DNA of 64,000 nt from Mycolicibacterium confluentis (GTDB taxonomy: Bacteria > Actinomycetota > Actinomycetes > Mycobacteriales > Mycobacteriaceae). A program made the translations under genes and the position numbers. The stretch lies in contig NZ_AP022612.1 of the NCBI RefSeq assembly GCF_010729895.1, positions 868,001 through 932,000 on the forward strand, given 5' to 3'. Below the pieces are notes generated by a model. That model worked only from the letters and a program-made list of their open reading frames with translations. It did no database searches and was not told the DNA's origin. Positions 28,280-38,678 of this stretch are shown piece after piece; position 1 is the first letter of the stretch; every line of letters begins with the position of its first letter.

Positions 28280-28311
28280 CGCTGGGCCCCTCCTGGCGGA
28301 GAGGCCCAGCG
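28280..28311. terminator. Hairpin terminator between convergent typA and GjpA-like gene
   Basis: CGCTGGGCCCCTCC at 28280-28293 pairs with GGAGAGGCCCAGCG at 28298-28311 (14 bp, one mismatch, TGGC loop). It starts 7 nt after the typA stop and ends 14 nt before the stop of the opposing gene, so it can serve both directions. No clear U-tract, as common in mycobacteria. Confidence 0.8.
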
Positions 28312-28324
28312 GGTTTCGCCGCCG

Positions 28325-29428
28325 TCACTCGGTGGCGTCGGCGGTCTTCTTCGGCTTCGGTGACAGTGCCTTCTTGACCTTGGCCACCGCGGCCTTGACC
28401 TCGGTGCGCACCGACTTCGCCGCCTGACGCAGTGCCGCGCCTGGCTTGGCCTTCGGGGTCTTCGTCGTCTTGGCGGCCCCGTCGGTGTCGCCGTCGGTCT
28501 TGGCAAGGCCGGCGGTGTCGTCGGTGAGGGCGGCCCGATCCGCCTTGACCAGCTTGGCCCGCGGTTCGTCGGCGAGCTTGGCCTGGTCGTCGACCGTCTT
28601 GATCCTCCCCGGGTTGAGCGCGTCGGCGATGCTGAGCTGCGCGGCGCGCACCGTGGCCAGGATGCTCCGGTGGCGCACCTCCATCTTCATCTCGACCGGG
28701 GCGTCGTCGCGGATGCCAGTTCCGATGGTGACCGCCCGCGTGACGTCGGCGACGTTGGCCGCGCCTGTCACCACGGCGTTGTAGGTCGCGGTGAGGTCGC
28801 GTGTCTTGGCGGCATCGACAACTCCCACGAATGCGGTGATCTGAGCGCGGGTGATCTCCCGGAAGGCGTTCGCCGAGGCCGCGAGGATGGCCCTGGCCGC
28901 CTCCGGTACGACTTCGGAAAGTCGTCCGACGATCTCGGCCTGCATCCGCATGATCTGCTGGCCGGTTCGGATCAGTCTGTCGGCCGCCTGGAGGGCGCGG
29001 CCTATGGTGCCGTCCTCGAGCACCGCGATGGCACCTTCGACGTCGCCACTGCGGACCAGATCCCTAGCGGAGCTCAACGTGGCGGGCAGGTCCCAGACGA
29101 TGCTCGAGAGCGTGGCACCGGCGTCCACCGCCGCGGCCGCGAGTCCCCCGGTGAAGTACAGCTGGTTCGAGATGAGTTGGCTCGTGATCGGCACCGGGTC
29201 GCTGACGAAGTCCATCGTGGACAGCGTGAGGTCCCGAATCGTGGCCTGCACGACGGGGGAGAACGCCTGGATCGGGTTGATCGGCCCTGTGGCCATCGCG
29301 GTGGGGACGACGGTGATGTCGTGAACTGAGCGAACTTCCGGCCCCGGTGTGACGGGTGACACCAGCAGGGCGCCGACGCCGACAAGCGCGACTCCCGCGG
29401 CTAAATGACTTCGTATTGCAATTGACAT
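28325..29428 (-). CDS. Secreted Lys-rich-tailed protein, GjpA-like architecture
   Basis: A 367-residue exported protein. Residues 1-25 form a signal/anchor (MSIAIRSHLAAGVALVGVGA then LLVSPVTPGPEVR). The centre (about 40-260) is predicted helical and rich in Ala (IQAFSPVVQATIRDLTLSTM, GRALQAADRLIRTGQQIMRM). The last 80 residues are highly basic (TKTPKAKPGAALRQAAKSVR, then KVKKALSPKPKKT). This layout matches mycobacterial and Gordonia proteins annotated as outer membrane porin GjpA, but that is by architecture, not an alignment. The ATG at 29428 is used; the frame to 29503 adds 25 non-signal residues. A CTGAG repeat lies 43 nt upstream. Confidence 0.72.
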   Translation of the reverse strand: MSIAIRSHLAAGVALVGVGALLVSPVTPGPEVRSVHDITVVPTAMATGPINPIQAFSPVVQATIRDLTLSTMDFVSDPVPITSQLISNQLYFTGGLAAAAVDAGATLSSIVWDLPATLSSARDLVRSGDVEGAIAVLEDGTIGRALQAADRLIRTGQQIMRMQAEIVGRLSEVVPEAARAILAASANAFREITRAQITAFVGVVDAAKTRDLTATYNAVVTGAANVADVTRAVTIGTGIRDDAPVEMKMEVRHRSILATVRAAQLSIADALNPGRIKTVDDQAKLADEPRAKLVKADRAALTDDTAGLAKTDGDTDGAAKTTKTPKAKPGAALRQAAKSVRTEVKAAVAKVKKALSPKPKKTADATE

Positions 29429-29470
29429 CTGGAGACCCTTTCCAATGGTGGCTGATGTGCGGAAACGTAC

Positions 29471-29486
29471 CTGAGAGGAAGCTGAG
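29471..29486. promoter_or_regulatory. CTGAG-N6-CTGAG direct repeat upstream of the gene at 29428
   Basis: CTGAGAGGAAGCTGAG. In the orientation of the gene it reads CTCAGCTTCCTCTCAG, followed one nt later by TACGTT, a possible -10 element. The same 16-mer layout is found at 33032 and 35096. An 11-bp period direct repeat is typical of OmpR-family response regulator sites. Confidence 0.55.
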
Positions 29487-29887
29487 CGATTGTTTTTCAG
29501 CAAAAATTAACGGCATGGTCGATCAATGTGCTTAACAACGCAAATAGTTGTTTAGCAAAGGTGAAATAGCTGCTATGGTCAGCGCAGTTCAACACGAGAA
29601 AGCGGGCCCCTCTCAGGGCGGAGGACGACCACCTTCGCACCGCAACCTTTGAGGCGATAGCCGTCTATAACAGCTAACGTAATTGTCGCTGGCATGAATG
29701 GTGTGCGGACCTGCGAAAATCTTGCCGCCGACAATATGGCGAAATTCTTCAGAGGAGCGCCGAATAGCCCACCCTGCACAATTGTCCGGCGGACTTATGG
29801 CATCGGGCAAACCTTTGCTGGGCAACGTCTGTGCTCGCTGATGCCGGTGATGACCGGCAGAAGGCCGCCGAACCTGCCGATACGCTG
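29487..29887. other. 400-bp spacer between divergent GjpA-like gene and lpqW, lower GC
   Basis: This stretch contains AT-rich patches (for example TTTTTCAGCAAAAATTAACG and AATAGTTGTTTAGCAAAGG) unlike the surrounding coding DNA. Short frames exist (one of 64 codons at 29694) but none has a convincing ribosome-binding site or protein-like composition. It probably holds the promoters of the divergent genes and untranslated leaders; nothing else is identified. Confidence 0.5.
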
Positions 29888-31768
29888 ATGTGCGTGCCGA
29901 CCGCCCGCCGCCGCCTGATGACGACCGCGGCCGTTTTGTCTGCGCTGGTCACCGGGGCGTGCACGGTCAGTCCGCCTCCGGCGCCGCAGAGCACGGAGAC
30001 CGTGGAGAGCACGCCCCCGCCGCCGCCGAAGGCGACCCAGATCATCGTGGGCATCGACAACGTGGGCCCCGGCTTCAATCCGCATCTGCTCTCTGATCAG
30101 TCACCCGTCAATGCGGCGATCAGTGCCCTGGTGCTGCCCAGTGCGTTCCGTCCGGTCGTCGACAACAAGACTTCGACGGGATCGCGCTGGGAGATCGACA
30201 ACACCCTGCTGCTGTCGGCCGAGGTCACCAGCGAGGATCCGTTCACGGTCACCTACAAGATCCGACCCGAGGCGTCGTGGACCGACAACGCCCCGATCGC
30301 CGCGGACGACTTCTGGTACCTGTGGCGCCAGATGGTCAGCCATCCCGGCGTGGTGGATCCCGCGGGTTATGACCTGATCACCGGCGTGCAGTCGATCGAA
30401 GGCGGTAAGACCGCGGTCGTGACGTTCTCGCAGCCCTACCCGGCCTGGCGGGAACTCTTCACCGACATCCTTCCGGCCCACATCGTCAAGGACGTGCCCG
30501 GCGGGTTCGGAGCGGGTCTGGCCCGCGCCCTGCCCGTGACGGGTGGTCAGTTCAGGGTCGAGGCCATCGATCCGCAACGCGATGAGATCCTGCTGGCGCG
30601 CAACGACAGGTTCTGGGGCCAGCCCGCGGTGCCCGATCAGATCCTCTTCCGCAGAGCCGGAGCTCCTGCGGCGCTGGCCGATTCGATCCGTAACGGCGAC
30701 ACACAGGTGGCTCAGGTCCATGGCGGTGCCGCGGCCTTCGCTCAGTTGTCGGCCATTCCCGATGTGCGCACCGCGAGGATCGTGACGCCCCGCGTCATGC
30801 AGTTGACGCTGCGCGGTCAACAGCCCCAGCTGTCAGATCCGCAGGTGCGCAAGGGCGTTCTCGGCCTCATCGACGTCGACCTTCTGGCCGCCGTGGGTGC
30901 CGGCAGCGACAACACCGTGACGCTGGCCCAGGCACAGGTCCGCTCGCCGTCGGATCCCGGATACGTGCCCACCGCCCCCGCGGCGCTCACGCGGGAGGCC
31001 GCGCTCGACCTCCTCGAGGGCGCCGGTTATGTGTTCGAACCGGAGAGTGCCACTCCGGAGCAGGAACCGTCCCGGCCTCGTCTGGTCAAGGACGACAAGC
31101 AGCTTGCGCTGGTGCTCGGGGTCGCAGCCAACGATCCGACGTCCGTGGCAGTGGCCAACACTGCCGCCGACCAACTGCGGAACGCAGGCATTGCGGCCTC
31201 AGTCCTGGCGTTGGACCCGGTCGCGTTGTACGGAGACGCCCTGGCCAACAACAAGGTTGACGCGATCGTCGGGTGGCATCGGGCCGGGGGAGACCTCGCG
31301 ACGCTGCTGGCCTCGAGGTACGGCTGCCCAGCGCTGGAGGCGACTCCGGTTCCGACGACGGGGGCCACGCCGACCCCCACCTCCGCGTCACCAAAGCCGA
31401 CGTCGGTGAGTCCGACCACCACCTCTGCGTCACCGAAGCCGACGTCGCCCACCGCGACTCCGACCACCACCACCGTGCCCCCGCCGCCTGCGGAGTCGGC
31501 CGAACTGGTTCAGGCGCCGTCCAACCTGACGCAGGTCTGCGACCGCAGCATTCAGGCCAATATCGATGCGGCCCTTGACGGTTCGAAAGAGATCGGCGCG
31601 GTGATCGACGCCGTCGAGCCCAAGCTGTGGAACATGTGGACCGTGATGCCCATCCTGCAGGACACCACCATCGTGGCGGCGGGGCCGTCCGTGCTGAACG
31701 TTGCCCTGACCGGCGCGGTGCCGGTGGGCATCGTCGGCGATGCCGGCACGTGGGCGAAGAAGCCCTGA
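29888..31768 (+). CDS. lpqW: Lipoprotein LpqW (regulator of PIM/LAM branch point)
   Basis: A 626-residue lipoprotein with the solute-binding-protein (SBP_bac_5) fold. From ATG 29888 the signal peptide [20 protein letters not shown] ends in the lipobox-like VTGAC, with lipidation at Cys24. SBP core segments include [40 protein letters not shown] and [10 protein letters not shown]. Residues about 495-540 are an inserted Pro/Thr/Ser-rich linker containing a duplicated TSASPKPTS. In mycobacteria LpqW influences the switch of PIM4 toward polar PIMs or lipomannan, and suppressors of lpqW loss map to pimE, also in this window. Other start: GTG 29894. Confidence 0.9.
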
Positions 31769-31852
31769 CCGATCGAGTCCTGCTGTGAGAGTCACTGCGG
31801 CCGGGTGACGCCCTGAACTGATGCGGAGGGGTGCCCGCGGCCGTGAACGCCA

Positions 31853-31891
31853 CTGCCCCCTGTCCGACGCCGGGCGCCGAGCAGGGGGCAG
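31853..31891. terminator. Hairpin between convergent lpqW and GjpA-like gene
   Basis: CTGCCCCCTG at 31853-31862 pairs perfectly with CAGGGGGCAG at 31882-31891, with a GC-rich 19-nt loop. It lies between the lpqW stop (31768) and the opposing stop at 31899, so it probably ends the minus-strand gene and perhaps lpqW. Confidence 0.65.
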
Positions 31892-31898
31892 AAGTGGC

Positions 31899-32957
31899 TC
31901 AGTCCTTCGAGTCGGCGGCCGACGCACGATCGGCGCCGGTCACGCGTTTCACGAGGCGCTCCAGGCGCTTACCGGGAGCCTTCACGTCGAGCTTCCGGTC
32001 GGCCTTGGTCAGAGAGGAGAGCGGCGTGATCCGCTTCGGCGCGGCCGTGTCGTCCTTCTCGTCCTTGACGTCCTTTGCAGCCGTGTCCCTGGCCGCGGAC
32101 GGCAGCAGGCTGCTGCGCGCCTGCACGGTCGTCGTGGGGACCGGGGCACCCGAATTGGGGTTCACTCCCAGGGCGTCGGCCACGGTCTTGCGCACCGAAT
32201 CGCGGGCGCCGATAAGCACGTTGTTGCGGAACTGCATTAACTGACCGTCACCGGTCGGGTCCGTGGGTTCGCCGTTTGTGCCTCCGACGGGTGCGGGCAG
32301 CACGCGCGCGACGCCTTCGATGGCGGGATCAGCGATCCACTGCGGTGCGTCGATGTACTCCCGCAGGGCCAGGTACAACGCGGTGTTCGGACCACCCGAC
32401 AGTGAGGTGAGCGCCCCCTCCGCGACGGGAACCACGCCGAGGGGTGCCGACGCGAGTCCTCTGATCAGACGCTGCAGGGAAATGGCCGTGCCTTCGGCGA
32501 GGTCGCCGACATCGTCGCGCAGGTCGATCAGCGCGGTGTTGCGGAACTTCAGCAGAGCCCCGTCGCCGACACCATCGGTGGGCTCGCCGCCGGTTCCGCC
32601 GCCCAGTTCGTCCGGAATGATCTGCGCGAGGGCCTCCAAGACGGGGTCGAGCGCCCACAGCGGTGTATCGGCGGCATCGGTGACCACGCTGCGCAGCAGA
32701 TTCTCGTCACCTGCGATCACCACGTACGCCGCGACAAGGGGCGTCAGCGGGGCTGACGCCACGGTGGTGACGAACCGCTGGCCGGACAGCGCCAGCAGTT
32801 CGGTCGGCGGCTGGTTATAGATTGCTGCCAGCCCAACCTGTGCTTCGATCGCCCGCGGTGTCGCCGCCGACGCGGGCGCGATCGGTGTCAGAGCGATGAC
32901 GCTCGCGCCGACGATCGCCACACCCGCACCAAGACGGCATTGAACAGACTTCTTCAT
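31899..32957 (-). CDS. Secreted protein with an internal duplication and basic tail, GjpA-like architecture
   Basis: A 352-residue exported protein from ATG 32957: signal MKKSVQCRLGAGVAIVGASV, with ASA cleavage near residue 32. The mature part contains two related units: DTPLWALDPVLEALAQIIPD...GEPTDGVGDGALLKFRNTAL and DAPQWIADPAIEGVARVLPA...GEPTDPTGDGQLMQFRNNVL, about 110 residues apart. A basic linker and tail (KDVKDEKDDTAAPKRITPL, then KRLERLVKRVTG) end it. Probably an envelope protein. The frame open to 33011 adds 18 residues with no signal character. A CTGAG direct repeat lies 75 nt upstream. Confidence 0.7.
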   Translation of the reverse strand: MKKSVQCRLGAGVAIVGASVIALTPIAPASAATPRAIEAQVGLAAIYNQPPTELLALSGQRFVTTVASAPLTPLVAAYVVIAGDENLLRSVVTDAADTPLWALDPVLEALAQIIPDELGGGTGGEPTDGVGDGALLKFRNTALIDLRDDVGDLAEGTAISLQRLIRGLASAPLGVVPVAEGALTSLSGGPNTALYLALREYIDAPQWIADPAIEGVARVLPAPVGGTNGEPTDPTGDGQLMQFRNNVLIGARDSVRKTVADALGVNPNSGAPVPTTTVQARSSLLPSAARDTAAKDVKDEKDDTAAPKRITPLSSLTKADRKLDVKAPGKRLERLVKRVTGADRASAADSKD

Positions 32958-33031
32958 TTGCTGAACCCCCCAAGGTTCTGTGATTGCCCCAACCCCGCGC
33001 AGGTCTTCCATGCGCCCTGCGACGAGTATGG

Positions 33032-33047
33032 CTCAGGTTCCTCTCAG
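33032..33047. promoter_or_regulatory. CTGAG-N6-CTGAG direct repeat upstream of the gene at 32957
   Basis: On the plus strand CTCAGGTTCCTCTCAG; in the orientation of the minus-strand gene CTGAGAGGAACCTGAG. It differs from the 29471 copy (in plus-strand reading of that site) at one base. The included GGAAC could also act as an extracytoplasmic-sigma -35 element. Confidence 0.55.
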
Positions 33048-33179
33048 CTTTCACCACCTCGTTGAATGCGCAAGCATCCCTGGTTTCGAGGTGGTAGCTG
33101 ACCGCTGGTCGAGTCGAACGGGGCCGCAGATCGAGCGGTCGGCTCGCCTTTGCTGGCGGCTGGGGCACGAGCAGAAACA

Positions 33180-33212
33180 AAGCGGGGCCCACTCAATGAG
33201 TGGGCCCCGCTT
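33180..33212. terminator. Strong hairpin terminator of the gene at 33223
   Basis: AAGCGGGGCCCACTCA (33180-33195) is perfectly complementary to 33197-33212, with one base between arms, so the real loop is a few nt. It starts 11 nt past the stop of the minus-strand gene at 33223. It is the longest perfect hairpin in this region besides that after mshB. Confidence 0.88.
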
Positions 33213-33222
33213 CGTGGGGGTG

Positions 33223-35034
33223 TTACTCGGCGCTGGCGCTGCTCGACGCAGACTCCCGCTTCGAGGCGCGCTCGGCCTTGGCGGCTGTGCGCTTCTCGGC
33301 ACGCTCGGCCTTGGCGGCCTGACGCTTTTCGGTCCGCTCAGCCTTGGCCGCGGCACGCTCGGCCTTGGCGGCTTCGCGCTTCTCCTTGGCCTTGCTCACC
33401 GTGGACGGGGCTTCGGTGCTGGATTCGCTGTCGGAGCCGCCGGTCGACGGGGTCTCGGTCAGATCCGAATCCTTCACGACCACCGAGGTCTCGCCCTCGG
33501 AGGTCTCGTCCTTGATGGTGGAGTCGTCGACGGCGACGATCTCCTTGTCGACGGCGACATCGGTGGCGACCTCGACGTTGACCAGTGCGGTACGCGCACC
33601 GGCACCGGCATCCGGTGCCTCCGGGGTCAGCGCTTCGCCGATCGCCGTCAGGGCGCCGGTGATGGTCTCCTCAACCGTGTAGGAGATGGCGAGGGCGGTG
33701 TCGACGCCGTCGTCGATCAGGCCGTTGACGGCGGTGAGGCCGCCGAGCGCCAGGTCCTTGGCGTCGCTGATCACCTGGTTGATCTGCACCGCCAACGCCA
33801 CCGGCAGACCCGCGATGTCCTCGGGCAGGCCGACGGCCGTCAGCAGGCCGGAGACCGCGTCCGCGACACCGGTCGTGAGGGAGGCGATCAGAGTCGCGGT
33901 GGTCTCCGTCAGGCTGGATGCCAGGTTCACCGGGATGTGCAGGAAATCGCCGGAGGCGATGATCCCGGTGTTGAGCACCCCGAAGCCTCCGCTGATGAGC
34001 GAGGACAGGGCCGTGGTGTAGCTCGCGGGGCTCAGCGGCTGGTCGCCGATGGCGGTGAGCGCACCGTTGATGCCCTGCTGCACGCTGGCGGTCACGTACC
34101 AGGGGATATCGGTGGCGGTGAAGAAGCCGGCCCGGAGGGCGTCCACGACGGCGTTTCCGGTGCTCGCCGCGGCGTTGACCACCGCAGAGATCGGGGTGAT
34201 CGCCAGGCCCTGGATCGCCTGAACCACACCCGCGACGATCTGGCTGTCCGAGGCGGTCGCGAGGCCGCTGAGGATGCCGCTCAGGCCGCCGAGCGCGATG
34301 TTGATCTGGCCCTGCACCTCTCCGATGCCGAGCTTGATCAGGCCGTCCGTCCACGACACGGACTGTGCGGCGGAGGGCTCGACGTTGTTCCAACCCAACA
34401 GCGCGCCACCGAGGGTGTCGATCAGTTCGACGCCGCCGTAGACCGCGCCTGCGGCGATGTCCACGCCGCCGCTGAGCAGGCCGGTGTAGCTCGACAGGGC
34501 CAGCGGGTTGTTGACGACGTCGGCGAGAGCGTACAAAGCCGTCGACAGCGAACCGATGAGCGTCGAACCGATGATGTCGGTGACATCGCCCGGCAGGAAG
34601 GAGACGATCAGGTCGGCGTTGCCGACGGTGCTCAGGAGCTGGGAGAAGCCCGCTTCTGACGTGGCGGACAGGGCGTACAGCAGGCCGCCCAGGGTCGTCG
34701 TCGGGCCACCCGCGGCGTCGATCAGGGTGGTCCACAGGGCGGTGTTGAGGGTGGACGCTTCGTCGAGTACGCCGAGCAGAGTTTGCCCCGGAATCGAGGC
34801 GATCGCGTCGACCGTCCCGACGACGTCGGCGAGGCCGGCGTTGAGTGCGGCGATGAACTCAGCGATCGCGGCGTCGTCGATCACAGCCGACAGCTGCACG
34901 TCGGGCACCGAGACGCTCGGAATCGTCAGGGTCCGATTGTCGCTTGGTGTGACCACGACGGGCGTCAAAGCAATGGCACTGGCTGCAGTGAGTGCCATGC
35001 CGGCCGTGAGGTACGAGCGGGCGGAGATCTCCAT
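33223..35034 (-). CDS. Large secreted GjpA-like protein with Ala/Lys coiled tail
   Basis: A 603-residue exported protein. The N-terminus MEISARSYLTAGMALTAASA followed by IALTPVVVT is the pattern seen in proteins annotated as outer membrane porin GjpA. The long centre (50-470) is Ala/Gly/Leu-rich helical with repeated short motifs such as VVNNPLALSSYTGLLSGGVD and YTTALSSLISGGFGVLNTG, consistent with amphipathic membrane association. The last 65 residues are a repetitive AAKAERAEKR-type coiled tail. Porin function is inferred from name-bearing relatives only. Start ATG 35034; the CTGAG repeat at 35096 lies 62 nt upstream and a perfect terminator follows. Confidence 0.75.
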   Translation of the reverse strand: MEISARSYLTAGMALTAASAIALTPVVVTPSDNRTLTIPSVSVPDVQLSAVIDDAAIAEFIAALNAGLADVVGTVDAIASIPGQTLLGVLDEASTLNTALWTTLIDAAGGPTTTLGGLLYALSATSEAGFSQLLSTVGNADLIVSFLPGDVTDIIGSTLIGSLSTALYALADVVNNPLALSSYTGLLSGGVDIAAGAVYGGVELIDTLGGALLGWNNVEPSAAQSVSWTDGLIKLGIGEVQGQINIALGGLSGILSGLATASDSQIVAGVVQAIQGLAITPISAVVNAAASTGNAVVDALRAGFFTATDIPWYVTASVQQGINGALTAIGDQPLSPASYTTALSSLISGGFGVLNTGIIASGDFLHIPVNLASSLTETTATLIASLTTGVADAVSGLLTAVGLPEDIAGLPVALAVQINQVISDAKDLALGGLTAVNGLIDDGVDTALAISYTVEETITGALTAIGEALTPEAPDAGAGARTALVNVEVATDVAVDKEIVAVDDSTIKDETSEGETSVVVKDSDLTETPSTGGSDSESSTEAPSTVSKAKEKREAAKAERAAAKAERTEKRQAAKAERAEKRTAAKAERASKRESASSSASAE

Positions 35035-35095
35035 TTTTTGTTACTTCCCCTTCTGGTTGGGCTGAACCGGGTAGCTGTGAGCGTAGGGGCAATTT

Positions 35096-35111
35096 CTCAG
35101 GTTCTGCTCAG
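35096..35111. promoter_or_regulatory. CTGAG-N6-CTGAG direct repeat upstream of the gene at 35034
   Basis: On the plus strand CTCAGGTTCTGCTCAG; in the gene orientation CTGAGCAGAACCTGAG. Ten nt downstream in gene orientation is TACGCT, a plausible -10, so the repeat overlaps or sits just upstream of the -35 region. Confidence 0.58.
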
Positions 35112-35502
35112 GGAATTGCAGACCAATTCGGTCGATCTTTGCGTTTTCAACTAAGTTTGCTGGCGAAGGTCGGTGGCGTCGGCGGACTCACGTGTCGAAG
35201 ACCGTGGATAACGGAAACTGGTGGCATGAGCTGTCATTGTTTGCTGGATACGCGTGAGGCTGCTGTTGCTGCTGTAACCAGCCTTCAAGATCGCCCGCGA
35301 GCGGCATAACTGTTAGCTGGGCCACATGAGCCGTGGTTAATTTCCGGTAACGTCAAAAATGATTGGCGGCGCTACGAGAATGTTTGCCCCAGGTGAACGA
35401 AATTTGATCTCGAAACAGTCTCGGCGGGATGTCGAGAACTCTCAGGAAGCCTCTCGGAAGGGGCTGACGGAGCCGTAAAACCTTGCTGCCAGGGCCGCGA
35501 AC

Positions 35503-35518
35503 CTGAGCTCAACCTGGG
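35503..35518. promoter_or_regulatory. Degenerate copy of the CTGAG repeat upstream of mshB
   Basis: CTGAGCTCAACCTGGG matches the 35096 site in gene orientation at 13 of 16 positions and keeps the 11-bp period. It starts 66 nt before the mshB ATG in the same orientation as two of the three clear copies. Could be chance. Confidence 0.3.
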
Positions 35519-35568
35519 AAGCTGCCGGTGGGCGGCGTTCGCCAAAAGATCGCCGCTACGCTGAATCG

Positions 35569-36456
35569 ATGCAAGCTGAAAGGCCACGTCTTCTCTTTGT
35601 GCACGCGCACCCAGACGACGAGACCATCAACAACGGGGCAACCATCGCCCACTACGCAGCCCTCGGCGCCGAGGTTCGGGTCGTCACCTGCACCCTCGGC
35701 GAGGAGGGAGAGGTGATCGGCGAGCAATGGGCTCAGTTGGCCGTCGATCACGCCGATCAGTTGGGCGGATACCGCATCGCCGAACTCTGCTCGGCCCTGC
35801 ACCTTCTCGGGATCGACGACCCGATATTCCTCGGAGGGGCCGGACACTGGCGCGACTCCGGGATGGCGGGAACACCTCCACGTGGCGGGCGGCAGCGCTT
35901 CGTCGACGCGGATGAGAGGGAGGCCGTCGGCGCTCTCGTGGAGATCATCCGCGATCTGCGTCCCCACGTCGTCGTCACCTATGACCCCAACGGCGGTTAC
36001 GGGCACCCAGACCACATCAGGGCACACGAGGTGACGACGGCGGCGGTCGCTGCCGCAGCCACGACGGAGTACCCCGGTGAGCCCTGGACGGTGTCCAAGT
36101 TCTATTGGACGGTCCTCTCGGGCCGTGCCGTGCAGGCCGCCGCCGCCGGTTTGGACTCGTCTGACCTCCTGCCGGGATGGGTGCTGCCGCCGAGCGACAT
36201 CGAGTTCGGCTACTCGGACGAGCAGATCACCGCGATGGTCGACGCCACCGATGGGTTGACCGCCAAGATCGAAGCGCTTGGGGCACACGCCACGCAGGTC
36301 GTCGTCGGTCCCACCGGTCGCGCCGCGGCGCTCTCGAACAACCTCGCACTGCCGGTCTCGGGATACGAGCACTACGTCCTCGCATCAGGGGAGAGCGGCG
36401 AGCGAAACGAGCGCGGTTGGGAGACCGACCTCCTGGCAGGCCTGGACCTGCCTTAG
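35569..36456 (+). CDS. mshB: N-acetyl-glucosaminyl-inositol deacetylase MshB (mycothiol biosynthesis)
   Basis: A 295-residue zinc deacetylase of the PIG-L fold that converts GlcNAc-inositol to GlcN-inositol, the second enzymatic stage of mycothiol synthesis. Zinc ligands are in [10 protein letters not shown] (residues 12-21: His14 and Asp17) and the later HPDHIRAHE; the catalytic base Asp is Asp16 of the same motif. [14 protein letters not shown] and [12 protein letters not shown] are family-typical. The ATG at 35569 directly precedes [18 protein letters not shown] perfect terminator follows 8 bp after the stop. Position corresponds to Rv1170. Confidence 0.95.
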
Positions 36457-37448: not shown

Positions 37449-38678
37449 CTACTCCGCGGTTTCGGCGGACCTTCGCGGTGACTTGGACGTGGTGGCCTTC
37501 TCGACGGCTTTCGCCACCCGGGTCTTCAGGCCGTCTCCGATGCGTGTACGTGGGCTGTCACCCACCGCGGGGTCGGAACTGGTGTGGTCCCTGCTGTCGT
37601 CCTTTTTGTCGGACTGGGCGGTCGCCTCGGAGGAGGACTTGACGGCCTTGGCCGCCCTGTCGAAATTCCTGCCGGCCTTCTCCCTGGTCAGTTCAAGCCG
37701 TGACAAGGTTTTGGCGAGGACATTCCGCGGATGCTGGACCGCGACGTCGGCGGGCGTGGTGACATCCGCCGGGGCGGGCGTGGTGACGGACGTGGTGTCC
37801 GGGGTGGGCTCAGGTGGCGTTCCCTGGTCCCCGGACTGCGTCGCGCCTTCGTTTTCGAGGTCAGTGAGCTGCACCGGTGGCGACGTCAGTGCGGAACCGG
37901 ACCTGTCGGCGGGTGCGATCTCGTCGAGCGCAGGAACCCAGGTCGCGGGGTCGAGCGCCTGGGCCAGGTGGTCGACTCCGCGCTGGATCGCCGGCTGGAT
38001 CGCAGCGTCCCAGGCCTCGCCAAGCGACTCGGACATTTCCGTGAGGGCTTCCGTGGCGTTGAGGACTGACTCTGGCTCTGTGGCGACGGACGCGGACGCG
38101 ACTGACGAGAGGCTCGGCCACCACGGCGGCAGCGGCGGTATGGGGAACGGCAGCCACTGCAGGCTCAGGGCGTAGTTGATCTCCCCTCGGACGCCGGCGA
38201 TCACACCATTGACGGCGGCGTCGGCGATGGCGCCGATTCCGGCGGCCCAGACGCCGAGGTTGAGCGGGTCGTTGACCACCGGGTCCAGGAAGTCGTAGAC
38301 GAACGCATCGGTCACCGCGAGCACGAAGGGCTGGTACCAGATGAAGATCTGGTCGGAGATCAGGTAACCGAACGGGACGAAGCTCAGCGCCCACGGGGCC
38401 AGTTCGAGCGAAGCGTAGTTGGCCCAGCGTCGAGTGAACTCATACACGGTGTCGATGACGTTCGAGGCCGCGTTCATCGGGGCGACCCCCGCATCGGGCG
38501 ACGGCGGCGCGGCCAGGGTGAACAGGTTGGGGGCGACGCTCGCGGTGTTCTGCACCGACCAGGTGACGGCCGGTGGCGCAGCGGGGGCGGGCGGTGACAC
38601 GACTGGAGCGGCCACGATCGCGGTGGCCGTCAGCGTCGCGACGCCAACGGTCAGAACCGAGCGAACGGAAACACCCAT
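37449..38678 (-). CDS. Secreted Pro/Ala-rich protein with basic tail, GjpA-like architecture
   Basis: A 409-residue exported protein from ATG 38678. Signal MGVSVRSVLTVGVATLTATA then IVAAPVVSPPAPAAPPA. The middle contains FTRRWANYASLELAPWALSF, FGYLISDQIFIWYQPFVLAV and aromatic/Pro-rich WLPFPIPPLPPWWPSLS, suggesting membrane contact. The last 130 residues are Thr/Pro-rich, then basic (LSRLELTREKAGRNFDRAAK, VAKAVEKATTSKSPRRSAE). It differs from the other three in lacking a visible CTGAG repeat upstream. No catalytic motif. The open frame to 38753 has no signal sequence. Confidence 0.7.
   Translation of the reverse strand: MGVSVRSVLTVGVATLTATAIVAAPVVSPPAPAAPPAVTWSVQNTASVAPNLFTLAAPPSPDAGVAPMNAASNVIDTVYEFTRRWANYASLELAPWALSFVPFGYLISDQIFIWYQPFVLAVTDAFVYDFLDPVVNDPLNLGVWAAGIGAIADAAVNGVIAGVRGEINYALSLQWLPFPIPPLPPWWPSLSSVASASVATEPESVLNATEALTEMSESLGEAWDAAIQPAIQRGVDHLAQALDPATWVPALDEIAPADRSGSALTSPPVQLTDLENEGATQSGDQGTPPEPTPDTTSVTTPAPADVTTPADVAVQHPRNVLAKTLSRLELTREKAGRNFDRAAKAVKSSSEATAQSDKKDDSRDHTSSDPAVGDSPRTRIGDGLKTRVAKAVEKATTSKSPRRSAETAE

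Follow-up and report, generated by a model that had tools for sequence, protein, structure and literature searches.

MprA, the response regulator of the well-known mycobacterial envelope-stress switch MprAB, reportedly acts through an MprA box that He and Zahrt described in 2005 as two loosely conserved 8-bp repeats. The available parts of two reports name mprA, pepD and sigB as its targets (PMC3062566, PMC4867592), and the gene order mprA-mprB-pepD-moaB2 is said, in the accessible part of another, to be conserved in mycobacteria (PMC11656743). The regulator is reported to act in both directions: according to excerpts of two further papers, MprA shuts one sigE promoter in favour of another (PMC11173970), and both repression and activation of espACD by MprAB have been reviewed (PMC5855569). 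Our literature searches, for which some sources were accessible only in part, found no paper quoting the sequence of a mycobacterial MprA motif and nothing on point concerning MprA with outer-membrane proteins or small RNAs; in the open-access literature (subscription papers were not covered), no paper on a GjpA protein was found. Here we analyse a 64,000-nt stretch of the Mycolicibacterium confluentis genome (NZ_AP022612.1, positions 868,001 to 932,000 of the forward strand; hereafter the window), in which three copies of a direct repeat lie ahead of three genes for secreted GjpA-like proteins. We propose that this repeat is, in all likelihood, the operator of MprA and that genes for GjpA-like and PE-PPE-like secreted proteins would be new targets of this regulator.

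A sequence-only reading of the window had reported three exact copies of CTGAG-N6-CTGAG. These are present at 29471-29486 (plus strand), 33032-33047 (minus strand) and 35096-35111 (minus strand), and the window holds no others. As that reading had held, three copies are unlikely by chance (mean expectation 0.13; 0 of 100 shuffles reached three), and the six-base middle is indeed STTCYK. The distances to the gene starts at 29428, 32957 and 35034, all on the minus strand, are 42, 74 and 61 nt, near the 43-75 nt that had been given. The genome scan proposed as a check was less clear: in the 5.88-Mb genome (one contig), CTGAG-N6-CTGAG occurs 11 times and the reversed pattern 9 times, so that this form showed no clear genome-wide excess and was dropped as the unit. 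Among the neighbours of the 11 sites are the three window genes, two more GjpA-like genes and a gene for another secreted protein. One site lies 17 nt ahead of an OmpR-type regulator gene and another at the end of the next gene, for a histidine kinase, ahead of an HtrA-like protease gene; of the last three, one is found near a thiamine-pyrophosphate enzyme and a parA-like gene, one is intergenic and one falls where an open frame ends. Because a T precedes at least one CTCAG in 10 of the 11 sites, we adopted TCTCAG-N5-TCTCAG as the unit, and this extended form is in excess (exact, 6 vs. 0 for the reversed pattern; up to one mismatch, 17 vs. 6). Allowing one mismatch brings in sigB (NF005920, 648 bits), an MspA porin (NF053716, 374 bits) and a gene of the Rpf type that scored below its cut-off; the sites ahead of the MspA and rpf-type genes were given little weight.

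The OmpR-type regulator contains Response_reg and Trans_reg_C domains, and its gene is followed by genes for a histidine kinase, a trypsin/PDZ protease and a MoCF (MoaB-type) protein. Several naming sources call its 88-100% identical relatives MprA, other sources only a response regulator. We call it MprA because its close relatives are so named, because its domains are those of the OmpR family and because the gene order is the published one. In 25 genomes of the genus, that of M. confluentis included, we counted 91 distinct exact sites, and 16 more in 16 other genomes of the order; the reversed pattern had no exact match in any of the 41. BLAST of the flanking genes assigned the 91 sites to mprA (21 in 21 genomes), sigB (17 in 17), pepD (15 in 14), PE-PPE-like genes (8 in 7) and GjpA-like genes (7 in 4), with 23 sites in 12 genomes given no gene class; two of the latter (L074 and L102) look like sigB promoters when judged by eye from their neighbours.

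Further, we scanned mprA loci that had been fetched by the MprA protein alone and were therefore not chosen for the motif. A site within one mismatch, at most 160 nt upstream and always on the gene strand, was found in 22 of 28 named loci (L218-L244 and L289, out of 80 matches listed; the remainder, at most 56% identical, lay outside the scan). Loci with a site reach from Mycobacterium as far as Nocardia, Rhodococcus, Amycolatopsis, Actinocrinis and Nocardioides. Of the six loci without one, a Mycolicibacterium metagenome-assembled genome and Streptomyces are 2 mismatches away and Dietzia 3; the other three, Acidipropionibacterium, Micromonospora and Actinoplanes, are 4 away, and their regulators, at 58% identity, may not be MprA. 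Of the 16 loci L218-L233, 15 have a second site 2.1-3.4 kb further along, at the position of pepD. The features of an MprA box, a direct repeat with an 11-bp period and the same site at mprA, pepD and sigB, are thus present here. The occurrence of the site ahead of mprA, sigB and pepD across the genomes of the genus, together with its presence at mprA in 22 of 28 loci, points to MprA as the protein that would bind it. The sequence-only reading had proposed an OmpR-family operator, of PhoP or MprA; this proposal is well supported, with MprA indicated and PhoP disfavoured.

To score the window sites, we built a matrix from 34 unique mprA and pepD sites, with no gjpA gene in the training set. The three sites take ranks 1, 2 and 3 of the 64 kb, both strands included, each with one mismatch to the consensus. 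The best (12.9 bits) is GCTCAG-CTTCC-TCTCAG at 29471..29487 on the minus strand, that is, on the strand of gene 1 (28325..29428, minus; 367 aa). The second (11.5 bits), GCTCAG-GTTCC-TCTCAG at 33031..33047, and the third (8.5 bits), TCTCAG-GTTCT-GCTCAG at 35095..35111, are on the plus strand, opposite to gene 2 (31899..32957, minus; 352 aa) and gene 3 (33223..35034, minus; 603 aa), respectively. The 29471 copy had been called inverted, but it is the one that shares the orientation of the mprA, pepD and sigB sites, and the copies at 33031 and 35095 are of the opposite type. Because the single scores are modest, the weight rests on the coincidence of the top ranks with gjpA-like promoters.

The label GjpA-like is itself weak. 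Genes 1 and 2 match model NF033942 at 22.8 and 22.2 bits, gene 3 has no match, and none of the three reaches the curated cut-off of 100, which is exceeded in the same genome by the genes at 5633230 and 5631757. Identity to gene 2 is 21% for gene 1 and 20% for gene 3, and the likeness of gene 3 to the other window genes is mainly N-terminal. A fourth similar secreted gene at 37449-38678 (minus strand) has no good upstream site (best matrix score -4.6), and its protein, searched with the first residue missing, did not match NF033942. A Pfam search of the four window proteins returned no matches.

We assembled GjpA-family promoters by protein only, obtaining 132 distinct upstream regions of 250 nt from the genus. 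The GjpA model contributed 90 regions from the matches listed, nearly all starting near the model start (the boxed genes of L015, L060 and L088 lay outside this set), of which L134-L137 (whose match begins only at model position 22 or beyond), L147 (for lack of a usable frame) and, for no particular reason, L152 (which had a 2-mismatch site only) were left out. Homologues of the window genes contributed 64 of 90 loci, those matching within the first 10 residues, with three loci of the M. confluentis genome left out; one region with an in-frame stop and 15 duplicates were then removed. A site within one mismatch is present in 27 of the 132, compared to none for the reversed control and a mean of 0.32 for permuted half-sites (highest value 10, in two of 100 permutations); at up to two mismatches the counts are 35 vs. 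3. We conclude that the site is enriched ahead of GjpA-family genes. The homologues of gene 2, which was matched in 23 of 148 genomes with an N-terminal match at 10 homologous loci, carry it in 9 of 10 cases; in 8 of the 10 the box, at -86 to -111, is on the strand opposite to the gene, and the remaining two are the weakest matches.

The position of the site relative to putative -10 elements differs between gene classes. Offsets are counted in gene orientation, starting from 0 at the first base of the 17-bp box, for promoters chosen for the presence of a box; the L204 site (-195) lay beyond the same-strand distance limits, and the single PE-PPE-like same-strand site was not used. The pattern.A...T stands at offset 27 in 39 of 40 mprA promoters and 30 of 31 pepD promoters, with a T at its position 1 in only 1/40 and 0/31. 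In same-strand GjpA promoters, TANNNT is found at offset 18 in 16 of 18, and its first T in 17 of 18. Gene 1 is among the 16, with TACGTT at 29464..29469 (minus strand) as the inferred -10, 1 nt downstream of the operator. Opposite-strand GjpA promoters have TANNNT at offset 34, 17 nt downstream of the site, in 7 of 11 cases, and PE-PPE-like genes have it 2 nt ahead of the box in 3 of 7, a weak signal. At sigB, all 17 sites are followed by GGGAACT, an extracytoplasmic function (ECF)-type -35, at offset 66 (49 nt downstream of the box). For gene 3, TACGCT at 35080..35085 (minus strand) is a possible -10 judged from the sequence; its 9-nt distance from the 35095 operator is not seen in other opposite-strand promoters. 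A sigma-70 consensus scan of 28300-36000 gave no match. The spacing from site to -10 is thus fixed yet class-specific, 10 nt at mprA and pepD and 1 nt in 16 of 18 same-strand GjpA promoters, and this is a new observation.

The geometry suggests how the operator may work. Phosphorylated MprA would bind, as a tandem dimer, the pair of TCTCAG half-sites with their 11-bp period. For mprA and pepD this would put the operator at about -39 to -23, with a poor -10 downstream, and binding would activate. At sigB the operator would lie far upstream, the promoter there being of the ECF type, and at many secreted genes it would fall within or across what resembles a good SigA-type core promoter. In GjpA-type promoters such as that at 29471, it would occupy positions from about -30 to -14 and adjoin a good TANNNT -10. 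There, a bound dimer should exclude RNA polymerase, and therefore MprA would most likely repress these envelope genes under stress. A strong -10 under an operator usually marks a repressed promoter, and a weak -10 behind an operator an activated one; the good -10s of GjpA genes, set against the poor ones at mprA and pepD, therefore suggest repression, which we consider rather probable at 29471-type promoters. Taken as a whole, an MprA operator at envelope-protein genes is probably the best explanation of the data. The positional pattern also hints at a shut-off of envelope proteins under stress, which is our leading idea. More tentatively, and with slightly less than even confidence, we propose a two-way switch in which the position of the operator decides the effect of MprA: activation would result where it lies about 10 nt upstream of a weak -10 (mprA, pepD), and repression where it lies against or over a strong -10. 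Repressed in this way would be genes for secreted and outer-envelope proteins (GjpA and PE-PPE-like genes, and perhaps one MspA copy), possibly along with a small RNA.

Several results weigh against this interpretation. Two genomes of the genus (G016 and G022) have no exact site, and the genomes surveyed are related, so that the counts are inflated and the binomial figures overstated. The published MprA target sigE was not recognised beside the 17 sites of the M. confluentis genome, in which it was not located separately. None of the window scores rises above the low end of the training range (10.8-31.1), and in 20 simulated windows the best score exceeded 12.9 in five and the third-best 8.5 in two. 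No site within one mismatch is present in 105 of the 132 GjpA-family promoters; the counts with a site are 11/70 for the GjpA model, 6/26 for gene-1 homologues (five same strand, one opposite) and 1/26 for gene-3 homologues (there on the other strand), and the 35095 site is hence not conserved. At offset 34, neither gene 2 nor gene 3 has TANNNT, and all -10s were inferred from sequence. Additionally, the accessible part of a study of C. glutamicum assigns a different motif, TKTTAAGAAM, to MprA (PMC12113857).

MprA could also bind the operator and activate the GjpA-like genes, the site near the -10 then working together with a -35-independent RNA polymerase. MprA is reported, in the source portions available, to be an autoregulated activator of pepD and sigB; by eye, same-strand GjpA promoters have no -35, and the 17 nt between site and -10 in 7 of 11 opposite-strand promoters are compatible with activation. 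However, the spacing at mprA and pepD is 10 nt and not 1, and their -10s are poor (T1 in 1/40 and 0/31) where those of GjpA are good (17/18); the TANNNT ahead of the box at 3 of 7 PE-PPE-like genes would, weakly, place the site over the start. We regard activation as rather unlikely and prefer repression by MprA.

Binding by another OmpR-family regulator is very unlikely. PhoP, whose half-site differs in one base, binds TCACAGC repeats with a 4-bp spacer and thus the same 11-bp period (PMC4832192, available in part), but position 3 is T and not A in 34/34 first and 33/34 second halves of the training sites and in both halves of all three window sites, and the site is conserved at mprA itself, as autoregulation would predict. 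The GGAAC spacer of the 33031 copy might be read as the -35 of an ECF (SigE-type) promoter, in line with GGGAACT at sigB in 17/17 sites. This reading was rejected and is extremely improbable: by eye, GGAAC is found on the gene strand in this copy only of the three in the window and in none of the other opposite-strand sites inspected. Chance, or the copying of promoters along with duplicated genes, would fit the window genes being distant paralogues and the bare CTGAG motif lacking a clear genome-wide excess. We hold it to be just as improbable, since the reversed pattern has no exact match in 41 genomes, genes 1 and 3 are only 21% and 20% identical to gene 2, the promoters (genes 1 and 3 included) are alike by eye only at the box, and the site is kept at mprA in other genera and at the unrelated pepD and sigB.

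Boxes were also observed at further loci. At four loci of the genus (L066, L106, L081 and L044), the box may belong to a small RNA or leader: TANNNT follows 1 nt after it, and the next 85 nt or so close with a GGCCCCTCCC/GGGAGGGGCC hairpin (-46.7 kcal/mol, z -2.6; only one compensatory pair). This candidate is present in 8 of 148 genomes of the genus at 87-100% identity, and the matches, apart from the query's own, stop after the hairpin; an Rfam search of eight loci with orphan sites, the candidate included, gave no match up to E 0.1. In four genomes (L063, L077, L090 and L050), an exact box stands about 630 nt ahead of a polyketide-synthase-like gene, and gene calling gave nothing of at least 60 aa within 500 nt. 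An identical exact box, TCTCAGCGATCTCTCAG, lies near genes without an assigned class in three genomes (L069, L096 and L099). In the M. confluentis genome, three tandem MspA-like porin genes follow mprA-mprB-pepD and the MoaB-type gene (L125, G000:C1:578000-592000); a one-mismatch box lies a few tens of nt ahead of the second, which alone was matched to the MspA model. Three large secreted genes stand in a row at G000:C1:4775090-4786000 (L123), two with a PE-PPE domain (PF08237), and sites within one mismatch precede two of the three.

Our findings would link MprAB to secreted mycobacterial envelope proteins of a large family that has received little study, and they provide a sharp operator consensus, TCTCAG-N5-TCTCAG. 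The site resembles the MprA box of the M. tuberculosis MprAB regulon (mprA, pepD, sigB, sigE) in the 11-bp-period direct repeat found at mprA, pepD and sigB in this genus. It differs in its targets, GjpA-like and PE-PPE-like secreted proteins, and in the placement of the site, which lies beside the -10, covers the likely start or is found on the opposite strand. With the M. tuberculosis PhoP box TCACAGC-N4-TCACAGC it shares the format of an OmpR-family tandem-dimer site with an 11-bp period; the comparison with published sites, which the sequence-only reading had also proposed, could in the available part of that report (PMC4832192) be made for this half-site, which has A at position 3 where ours has T, and the present site is found at mprA. 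The proposed action in both directions is shared with the MprAB control of sigE and espACD, although the accessible portions of those papers (PMC11173970, PMC5855569) do not mention GjpA-like genes, the motif or the -10 spacing. If the two-way switch is true, mycobacteria would have a porin shut-off response of their own, and a stress-driven lowering of their outer-envelope proteins becomes a testable question. In E. coli, envelope-stress regulators (OmpR, CpxR and the small RNAs of sigma E) shut off porins. The common logic that we propose, as an analogy and with no claim of homology, is that stress lowers outer-envelope proteins and raises an HtrA-like protease, which here would be PepD.

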